Shown here piece after piece: positions 44,243-46,377 of a stretch of 52,702 nucleotides of DNA. This stretch comes from Bacteroidia bacterium. GTDB lineage: Bacteria > Bacteroidota > Bacteroidia > Flavobacteriales_D > Sanyastnellaceae. The notes under the pieces are model-generated. The model worked only from the letters and a program-made list of their open reading frames with translations. It made no database searches and was not told the origin of the DNA. Both the position numbers and the translations under genes were made by a program. The stretch spans positions 1 through 52,702 of the forward strand of contig JAUICJ010000020.1 of NCBI GenBank assembly GCA_030427925.1. The letters are read 5' to 3'. Each line of letters starts with the position of its first letter. Position 1 is the first letter of the stretch.

Positions 44243-45298
44243 ATGGAATTTTTCGAAGTCATTTTCCTGGGTAATCCGCTGCGCGAGTGGGGGGTGGCCT
44301 TGGTTTGGCTCCTCGGCGGCGTGGTCGTGGGGCGCCTCGTTTACCGCTGGTTTTCCCGCCGTTTGAAGCGTTTGGCGGCGCGCACGTCTTCGGAGGTGGA
44401 CGATTTGATCGTGGACCAAATCGAGGAGCCCATCGCCCTGGCGGTCGTGCTGCTCGGCGCTTGGTTCGGCTACGACCACCTTCGTTTCGGCGAGGGCGTC
44501 GACACGTTCATGGAGCACGTCTTCAGCATCGCGGTGGCCCTCGACGTGACGTGGCTTGCGGCCCGGCTCATCGATTCCCTGGTCGGCAACTTCCTCGCCC
44601 GGGTGACCGAGCGGTCCGAATCGAAGATGGTAGGTCAGGTCACGCCCATTTTGCAGAAGACGCTCCGGGCCACGATTTGGGTCCTGGGCACCATCATGGC
44701 CTTGAACAACGCGGGCTACGATGTGGGCGCCTTGTTGGCGGGGGTCGGCATCGGCGGCCTCGCCATGGCGATGGCGGCGAAGGATTTCGTGGCCAACATC
44801 TTCGGCGGCATCACCGTCTTCGTCGACAAGCCCTTCGTGGTCGGCGACCGCGTCCAGGTGGCGGGCATCGACGGCACAGTCCTCGAAATCGGCATCCGCA
44901 GCACGCGCATCAAAACCCTGGCCGGTCGGATGGTGACCATCCCGAACCACAAATTCACAGACGGCGTCGTGGAGAACGTTACGGCGGAGCCGGCGCGCAA
45001 GGTGCGGGTGGATTTGGGCCTTACCTACGACACCACCCCGGAGCGGATCGAACTCGCGTTGAGCATCCTGGAGGAGATCATCGTGGCGCATGTGGGCACC
45101 CAGGACAACACCACCGTTTGGTTCAGCGGCTTCGGCGATTTCAGCCTCAACGTGAGTGCGGTGTATTTCGTCCTGAAGGAAGCGGATGTGACGCTGACGC
45201 CGAGCGCCATCAACCTGGAGATTCTGAAGCGGTTCAACGCCGAAGGCCTCGAATTCGCCTTCCCCACGCAGACGGTGCTCGTGCAGCAGCCCAATTGA
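44243..45298 (+). CDS. MscS-family mechanosensitive ion channel
   Basis: A 351-residue inner-membrane channel releasing solutes under hypo-osmotic shock. There are about four helices, with the pore helix GVGIGGLAMAMAAKDFVANIFGGITVFVDKPF, in which the Gly/Ala packing of TM3 is kept, then the beta domain (VGDRVQVAGIDGTVLEIGIRSTRIKT) and the alpha/beta C-terminal part. I set the start at ATG 44243, just after the divergent promoter; the frame is open much further upstream, but that is a shadow of purK. Confidence 0.93.
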   Translation: MEFFEVIFLGNPLREWGVALVWLLGGVVVGRLVYRWFSRRLKRLAARTSSEVDDLIVDQIEEPIALAVVLLGAWFGYDHLRFGEGVDTFMEHVFSIAVALDVTWLAARLIDSLVGNFLARVTERSESKMVGQVTPILQKTLRATIWVLGTIMALNNAGYDVGALLAGVGIGGLAMAMAAKDFVANIFGGITVFVDKPFVVGDRVQVAGIDGTVLEIGIRSTRIKTLAGRMVTIPNHKFTDGVVENVTAEPARKVRVDLGLTYDTTPERIELALSILEEIIVAHVGTQDNTTVWFSGFGDFSLNVSAVYFVLKEADVTLTPSAINLEILKRFNAEGLEFAFPTQTVLVQQPN

Positions 45299-45303
45299 TC
45301 GAT

Positions 45304-45569
45304 CCGCTGGGATTGAAATCCCCAAATTAGACCAGCCATCGCCTGCGCAGCAGGACGAAGCTGGCGCGGTGCCATGTCGGGGGCTCGTGTGGTTTTTTTT
45401 CGCGCCGCTGGATTTGAAATCGCCAAATTCGCGGGGTGTCGGCCCGAAAAGTGGGGATTTCAATTTGAGCGGTGCGAATTTTCTCGTCGTCAGGTCAATT
45501 TTTGCCCCGTTTATGCGAAATCCCCAATCCCGGTCCGAAAAGTGGGGATTTCAATCCGAGCGGTGCGCA
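45304..45569. repeat. Cluster of five short inverted/direct repeats (about 25 bases each)
   Basis: The gene-free 314 bases between mscS and the next gene (45299-45612) hold five copies of a motif with core GGGGATTTCAATCC and flank GAGCGG/CAGCGG. Copies lie at 45304-45328 (minus), 45405-45429 (minus; 22 of 25 bases as the first), 45444-45478 (plus), 45515-45533 (minus, partial) and 45535-45569 (plus). The two long plus copies share about 32 of 35 bases. GAAATCCCC (45517-45525) and GGGGATTTC (45544-45552) form a perfect nine-base inverted pair, so strong hairpins are expected. No open frame here looks real. It resembles REP/MITE-like intergenic elements rather than CRISPR. Confidence 0.8.
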
Positions 45570-45612
45570 CGACATCGACCGCAAAAGGGAATATCTTGGG
45601 CGGGTCAAACCT

Positions 45613-46377
45613 ATGCATTTCGCCATGCGTTACGATGTGATCATACACCAGGACGAGCCGCGGTACTGGGCGATGGTGGGGGCCACGGTGGTCGGAGGGC
45701 TGCTGTTCGTCAAGGTGTTGGACCGGTTGGATGCGGAGCAGCGGGAGCGGCTGTTGCCGCGTTTGGGCTGGCTGCTCATCGCATTCAATTTGTTGTTGCC
45801 CGTCTACGCGACAGTGCATCCGGAGCAGCAGTTTACGTTGCACCGGTCGTTGCCCTTGCACTTTTGTGGGTTGAATTTTGTGTTGGTGGCGTTGAATTGC
45901 TTTTGGCGCAACACGTGGGTGTACACGTTTTCTGCCTTCCTCGGGACCATCGGGGGCCTGCATTCGTTCATCACGCCGCAGTTGACGGTCGGCGATGCGC
46001 CCATCGTGCTGGTGGATTATTGCATTCGCCACGGCTTCATCATCTTCATGCCCATCGTGATGACGCGGCATTTTGGGATGCGGTTTCCTAGGATGGGGTG
46101 GCTGAAGACGTATGGGATGGCCGCGGTGGTGTCGACGTTGATGGCGGGGGTGAATTGGGGGTTGAATACGTACTGGCCTGTGCCGGCGCACCAAGTGGCG
46201 AATTACATGTACATGTGGGAGCCGCCGAAAGTGGACAACCCGCTGGTGCGGGCGGATTGGGGATGGCCGGGGTATTTGGCGCCGTTGCACGTGGCGTTGA
46301 TTGCGCATTTGGTGGTGGTCAATGCGATTTATCGGTGGGCCGAAGGCCGGCGGGTGGTGGGGGTGATGGAGAGTTAA
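45613..46377 (+). CDS. TIGR02206/YwaF-like integral membrane protein
   Basis: A 254-residue protein with about seven helices. The block HRSLPLHFCGLNFVLVALN, followed by FLGTIGGLHSFITPQL and HGFIIFMPIVM, is the signature of the TIGR02206 (YwaF) family of unknown function. I set the start at ATG 45613, where the conserved part begins; the open frame runs back through the repeat cluster, but that part has no protein-like character. It is the only gene between the repeats and thyA. Confidence 0.8.
   Translation: MHFAMRYDVIIHQDEPRYWAMVGATVVGGLLFVKVLDRLDAEQRERLLPRLGWLLIAFNLLLPVYATVHPEQQFTLHRSLPLHFCGLNFVLVALNCFWRNTWVYTFSAFLGTIGGLHSFITPQLTVGDAPIVLVDYCIRHGFIIFMPIVMTRHFGMRFPRMGWLKTYGMAAVVSTLMAGVNWGLNTYWPVPAHQVANYMYMWEPPKVDNPLVRADWGWPGYLAPLHVALIAHLVVVNAIYRWAEGRRVVGVMES

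Follow-up and report, generated by a model that had tools for sequence, protein, structure and literature searches.

What is the repeated motif that fills the intergenic stretch downstream of an mscS-type mechanosensitive channel gene in a member of the Sanyastnellaceae, and by what kind of agent could it have been placed there? The initial annotation of the window, that is, the whole analysed stretch of 52,702 nucleotides, had described five versions of the motif in alternating orientation and had offered several readings, including a REP- or MITE-like element family, a site for a REP-type transposase (RAYT), and a structured RNA or attenuator. The genome that carries the window is one draft assembly of 2.95 Mb in 51 contigs, 99.5% complete, which was compared with other genomes at one genome per species.

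The repeat cluster at the mscS locus

The features of the locus are collected in Table 1. A profile search of the window without speed filters returned four matches of 28.1 to 36.2 bits, followed by the next at 9.3 bits, so that four of the five described versions stand as good copies, whereas the fifth is degraded to a half-end. Both orientations of the motif are present in the cluster, as described, and the near-exact direct repeat, noted earlier as 35 bases, was measured at 37 nt. Inverted pairing within the cluster is also borne out, the best pair consisting of 21 nt with 95% complementarity (45304-45324 and 45543-45563). The motif is confined to this place in the window: all four matches to the 20-mer GGGGATTTCAATCCNAGCGG at up to three mismatches lie within the mscS cluster, compared with 0.02 expected from shuffles, and a genome-wide search for the exact core GGGGATTTCAATCC gave just two occurrences, each inside the same cluster.

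Table 1. Genes and repeat features at the mscS locus (positions in the window)
Feature	Position	Strand	Support or remark
mscS-type mechanosensitive channel gene, upstream	44243..45298	+	Pfam MS_channel_1st/2nd/3rd
314-bp intergenic stretch between the stop of mscS (45298) and the start of the following gene (45613)	45299..45612	.	
Repeat end 1, abutting the mscS stop	45295..45328	-	profile 29.9 bits
Repeat end 2, GGCG variant	45396..45429	-	profile 28.1 bits
Direct repeat of 37 nt, copy one	45440..45476	+	
Repeat end 3	45448..45482	+	profile 36.2 bits
Degraded half-end, inner half GGGGATTTC kept, AGCG side lost	about 45506..45530	-	6.9 bits
Direct repeat of 37 nt, copy two	45531..45567	+	92% identity, offset 91 nt
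Repeat end 4	45539..45570	+	profile 32.9 bits
TMEM164-family membrane protein gene, downstream	45613..46377	+	Pfam PF14808, 99.9 bits

A repeat family dispersed through the genome

The motif is not unique to this locus. The genome search with the profile recovered a family of 46 ends, which were grouped manually into 16 intergenic clusters on 11 contigs. Fifty-one candidate ends had been chosen by eye from pattern matches, and 45 of them were used to build the profile, which is based on sequence only; the six left out were C3b 30153, C7 2788, C24a 80633, C49 45525, C24b 101205 and C50 7464, the last of which was nevertheless recovered by the search. The 46 matches score from 38.6 down to 21.9 bits, with one extra at 9.2 bits, and since 45 of them are training ends, this result mainly shows that the list of ends is near complete. 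The pattern GGGGATTTCAATNNNAGCG, at up to two mismatches, found 44 matches in the genome versus none for its reversed control.

Across the 45 ends the consensus is AAAGTGGGGATTTCAATNNNAGCG followed by an AT-rich tail, and the core is preceded by a lead-in of GTGGGG or TTTGGGG. Of the 46 ends, just 12 read AGCGNNGCG, and the full tag, AGCGGAGCG, is rare (2 of 46). A similar string, AATTTGGCGATTTGAA, was seen on contig C3 at about 24797 (L056) and on contig C36 at about 235332 (L025), neither place giving a profile match; these two places may hold ends that have diverged, or may belong to a second family.

The ends are organized predominantly as doublets, with 42 of the 51 candidates forming 21 adjacent minus-then-plus pairs (in 16 pairs neither end is degenerate), and with the GGGG cores inside a doublet spaced 6 to 122 bases apart. 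When the ends were masked, no interior match was found between different clusters among the 16 at E <= 0.05, while internal duplications are present in clusters C9 and C48a. No gene lies inside any of the 16 clusters, and no gene-bearing element with the family's ends was seen there. A CRISPR array was ruled out by the irregular spacing and alternating orientation, and integron attC sites were considered and set aside as a candidate.

Corresponding sites and profile searches in relatives

The mscS and TMEM164 genes are adjacent in five relatives, separated by a gap of roughly 0 to 75 bp (judged by eye) that lacks the motif; this comparison derives from nine relative loci put to tblastn, five of which had both genes. 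At the C48b site, the one same-genus genome available for comparison (completeness 87%) shows a gap of 17 bp behind the DUF2400 gene, where this genome has 127 bp; both flanks align at 75 to 77%, and the short site is too diverged for a target-site duplication or an exact boundary to be discerned. At the C11 site the same-genus genome gave no match, and the other five genomes compared matched only to the right of the cluster. The same-genus genome as a whole has no profile match at E <= 0.01. Within the taxonomic family the motif is not conserved in relatives, an outcome that the initial annotation had listed among its refuting conditions, and a gain in the lineage of this genome would be the simplest reading of the occupied versus short sites.

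Searches across a wider set gave sparse and weak matches. In a pattern search of 60 genomes, this one included, seven others had one match each at up to one mismatch. With the profile, under stricter filters, 138 of 149 other genomes had no match at E <= 0.01, and the remaining 11 had one or two, the best at 22.8 bits and so overlapping the weakest end of this genome (21.9). In one genus (g5), three of the four profile matches apparently fall in one shared coding stretch, and in another (g20) both apparently fall in one common coding stretch, in each case as judged by eye. A pattern with 18 specified bases matched 10 database records once each, where about 7 to 8 would be expected by chance and this genome was possibly excluded. 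The family pattern also matches 22 viral contigs, once each.

RAYT genes and their repeats in the same order

Repeats of the same build were found beside RAYT genes in the same order. In one genome of the order (G054), the stretches around its profile matches and Y1 matches were examined. Both of its profile matches correspond to a repeat, GGATTACAAATCC-AGCGGAGCGA. Repeats of this type, in the form GGATTGCAAATCC-AGCGGAGC, also flank a gene of 190 aa (L198:8038-8610) in inverted orientation on each side, and the protein of this gene carries the motifs TNHLHM, FWQ and YIHQNP and matches Y1_Tnp (PF01797) at 24.4 bits. Because this link began with E values of 0.002-0.003 per genome among 149 others, it could, taken alone, be due to chance. 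The G054 repeats share the core GGATT.CAA.TCCAGCG with the ends studied here, which follow the same register of GGATT, a three-base loop, A-n-n-n-n and AGCG; the family profile gives no match to the repeats beside the G054 gene.

The comparison was extended to 14 Y1 genes, namely that of G054 and 13 others, found by tblastn at E <= 1e-35 when 16 more stretches of relatives, chosen for their weak Y1 matches, were searched with the G054 protein. The closest group consists of the G054 gene and four others at 54-58% identity (L207, L211 and L212 of G050; L210 of G039), and all five have a palindrome with AGCGGAGC, or a one-base variant of it, on either side of the gene, so that three genomes of the order (G054, G050 and G039) carry RAYT genes between inverted repeats of this build. 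At the nine genes with 37-44% identity, some of whose stretches are truncated by contig ends, a palindrome with AGCGGAGC was not seen; some of these nine carry other inverted repeats. The 12 best PF01797 loci (L083-L094) also showed no such repeats. Of 16 occurrences of AGCGGAGC, 9 are preceded by 13 bases that form a palindrome with 4-5 of 5 pairs, compared with 5 of 375 for other AGCG occurrences. The lead-in of the relatives' repeats is mostly CCGCA, and the GTGGGG or TTTGGGG lead-in was not seen beside the relatives' RAYT genes that were compared.

Several further observations were made at these genes. Across L198, L207, L210, L211 and L212 the palindrome varies by gene (GGATT..AATCC, GCATT..AATGC, GGGC..GCCC) and the AGCGGAGC tag is constant. 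In a genome of the window's own family (G007), a relative of the G054 RAYT (L209:1631-2355) is flanked by 32-nt inverted repeats in which the palindrome is GCGTTGCAAACGC and the tail, GCACGAGCG, is a different one. In G037, a RAYT relative (L206:1651-2421) is enclosed by inverted repeats of 56 nt that belong to another type and are 88% complementary.

According to PMC6006769, TnpA of subclass 2.6 occurs mostly in Bacteroidetes and is marked by the motifs NH[LIV]H, WQ and YIH[QN]NP, and its genes are flanked by atypical REPs that lack GT[AG]G and have weaker structure. Judged by their motifs, the RAYT genes compared here would belong to this subclass.

Search for a cognate enzyme in the genome

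A RAYT gene elsewhere in the genome, which the initial annotation had raised as a check, was not found: the PF01797 model gave no match genome-wide at E <= 1, while in a search of 60 genomes that include this one, 28 had a match above the cut-off of the same model. The sensitivity of the model for this subclass is weak, given that the G054 gene itself scores just 24.4 bits, and a diverged gene of the subclass 2.6 type may therefore have been missed. A tblastn search with the G054 RAYT protein over 99 overlapping loci of the genome (about 357 kb in sum, window included) found nothing at E <= 1, in agreement with the earlier statement that the window encodes no matching transposase.

The result of the PF01797 search is what would be expected if the family, as a mobile repeat or a MITE, depended on a different recombinase, its likeness to the REPs of the order being coincidental, and the conserved GTGGGG before the core, unlike the relatives' repeats, and single ends that lack a conserved hairpin would also fit such an origin. 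This explanation is considered unlikely, given that GGATT, CAA and AGCG stand in the same register as in the G054 repeats beside a RAYT gene and that the 16 clusters reveal no gene-carrying element with these ends.

Genomic placement and RNA structure

All 16 clusters are intergenic, except that in two cases a gene end is overlapped by 5 bases; by the same gene calling, the intergenic share of the window is 8.7%. Genes were called with a codon score for which eight genes of the window served as the training set, and the left neighbour of C3b is far off and uncertain. The neighbouring genes are co-directional at eight clusters, convergent at seven and divergent at one. The sole cluster between divergent genes, at 80602-80760 of contig C24 (L019:1367-1525), consists of two fused ends, CTAATCCCCAAATTTGGGGATTAG, with almost no interior. 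The second gene to the right of the C7 cluster (L036:2449-3018) encodes DVDGDGVC-type repeats, the DNA of which recurs widely in this genome and its relatives.

Selection on RNA elements at the 3' ends of genes, acting as terminators or mRNA stabilisers, was weighed as a source of this placement. It would account for the short distance between cluster edges and the facing stop codons (median 15.5 bp, 22 distances), for the enrichment of convergent gaps (7/16 clusters vs 5/45 window gaps, p = 0.009), and for whole-cluster folding with z <= -2 in 16 of 24 cluster/strand folds. A position 3' of a gene is, however, ordinary, with just 4 of the 45 window gaps divergent, and the depletion of divergent gaps among the clusters (1/16, p = 1.0) is not significant; eight of the 24 folds lie above z = -2, and good folds of whole clusters are in any case expected of inverted repeats. 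A terminator scan, which sees loops of 3-8 only, found none here, and Rfam over the 16 loci gave three matches at E <= 1, all under the gathering scores.

Covariation was likewise not detected. RNAalifold on 45 ends returned 0 consensus pairs. A stem derived from the G054 repeats was kept in 64% of cells in the ends of this genome, the same as in shuffles, and when shifted by one base it was kept in 85%, with no compensatory change. The arms of 16 doublets, five of the 21 with degenerate ends having been left out, agree at 79.7% of positions compared with 81.1% in shuffled data (p = 0.93). The structured RNA or attenuator proposed at first, for which compensatory changes in the stems had been suggested as the check, is not supported by any of these three tests, and selected RNA elements at 3' ends are regarded as a distinctly improbable source of the family.

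Conservation in sequence and not in pairing would suit multiplied binding sites for a nucleoid or regulatory protein, as would the somewhat crowded distribution of the clusters (6 pairs within 25 kb vs 2.05 expected, p = 0.02). Such sites are a very improbable explanation of clusters that lie mostly 3' of genes and have no comparable set in relatives (149 genomes, by profile).

A probable orphan REP-type population

The evidence points to the mscS cluster being part of an orphan population of REP-type repeats with REPIN- or BIME-like doublets, of the kind linked to Y1 transposases of TnpA subclass 2.6, a reading to which we give a probability of roughly 0.7. The REP-like family suggested in the initial annotation is well supported by the 46 ends in 16 clusters, and what was directly observed comprises the dispersal of the ends, their arrangement in doublets, their position between genes, the relatives' sites that lack the motif, and the like-built repeats at RAYT genes of the order. 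Proven membership among REPs or REPINs is withheld, because it was assessed on the palindrome and a cognate gene: among the 46 ends, all five palindrome pairs are kept in 3, four in 12, three in 22 and two in 9, and the searches found no gene.

In the proposed mechanism, each end would consist of 13 bases that form an imperfect palindrome (GGATT-TCA-AnTCC), with an AGCG-type tag behind it. The single-stranded ends would have been recognised by a Y1 enzyme, and this enzyme would have copied doublets into intergenic sites; later tandem duplications including flanking DNA may have enlarged some clusters. In its behaviour the family resembles REPs or REPINs, and the subclass 2.6 type is its most likely ancestor. 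We infer that a Y1-type enzyme spread it, the gene of which would have been lost, have diverged beyond the reach of the Pfam model, or be missing from the assembly. A variant in which a REPIN-like population outgrew or outlasted its Y1 enzyme, and some other enzyme, one reading linear sequence, spreads its diverged ends or did so recently, is given only a small chance; if true, interspersed inverted doublets would have a way of spreading that needs no RAYT.

The REP-type kind is already known, and the orphan state is the point of interest. On this reading, a type of REP that has been described little gains what looks like an orphan case, in an order whose enzymes sit between repeats of the same build, and the case leads to the testable prediction that repeats decay after enzyme loss, the palindrome first. 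The finding that palindromes with AGCGGAGC accompany one group of RAYT genes in the order, and were not seen at the more distant RAYTs, additionally offers a test of the matching between enzyme and repeat.

Comparison with known repeat systems

Literature searches turned up no description of this family, which is no proof that none has been published. MITEs are similarly non-coding with inverted ends (PMC3116915), but no common interior was found between the clusters, no parent element was seen within them, and no target duplication was seen at the diverged short site. The GTAG and CGTC REP superfamilies share with the family dimers in opposite orientation, tandem units that include flanking DNA, and a location in unidirectional or convergent gene gaps, whereas neither tag can be read, by eye, beside the consensus core (PMC3733652). 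Compared with REPINs and BIMEs, the interiors are unrelated between clusters, no RAYT was found and the single end has no clear hairpin, although the spaced inverted doublets, the extragenic position and the clustering are alike (PMC3116915). With respect to the REPs of subclass 2.6, the family differs in that no gene was found in its own genome, the palindrome is more degenerate and the lead-in is GTGGGG or TTTGGGG; it resembles those atypical REPs in lacking the GT[AG]G tag, in its weak structure and in its dispersal through the genome, and comparable repeats lie beside genes of the order that bear the motifs of that subclass (PMC6006769).
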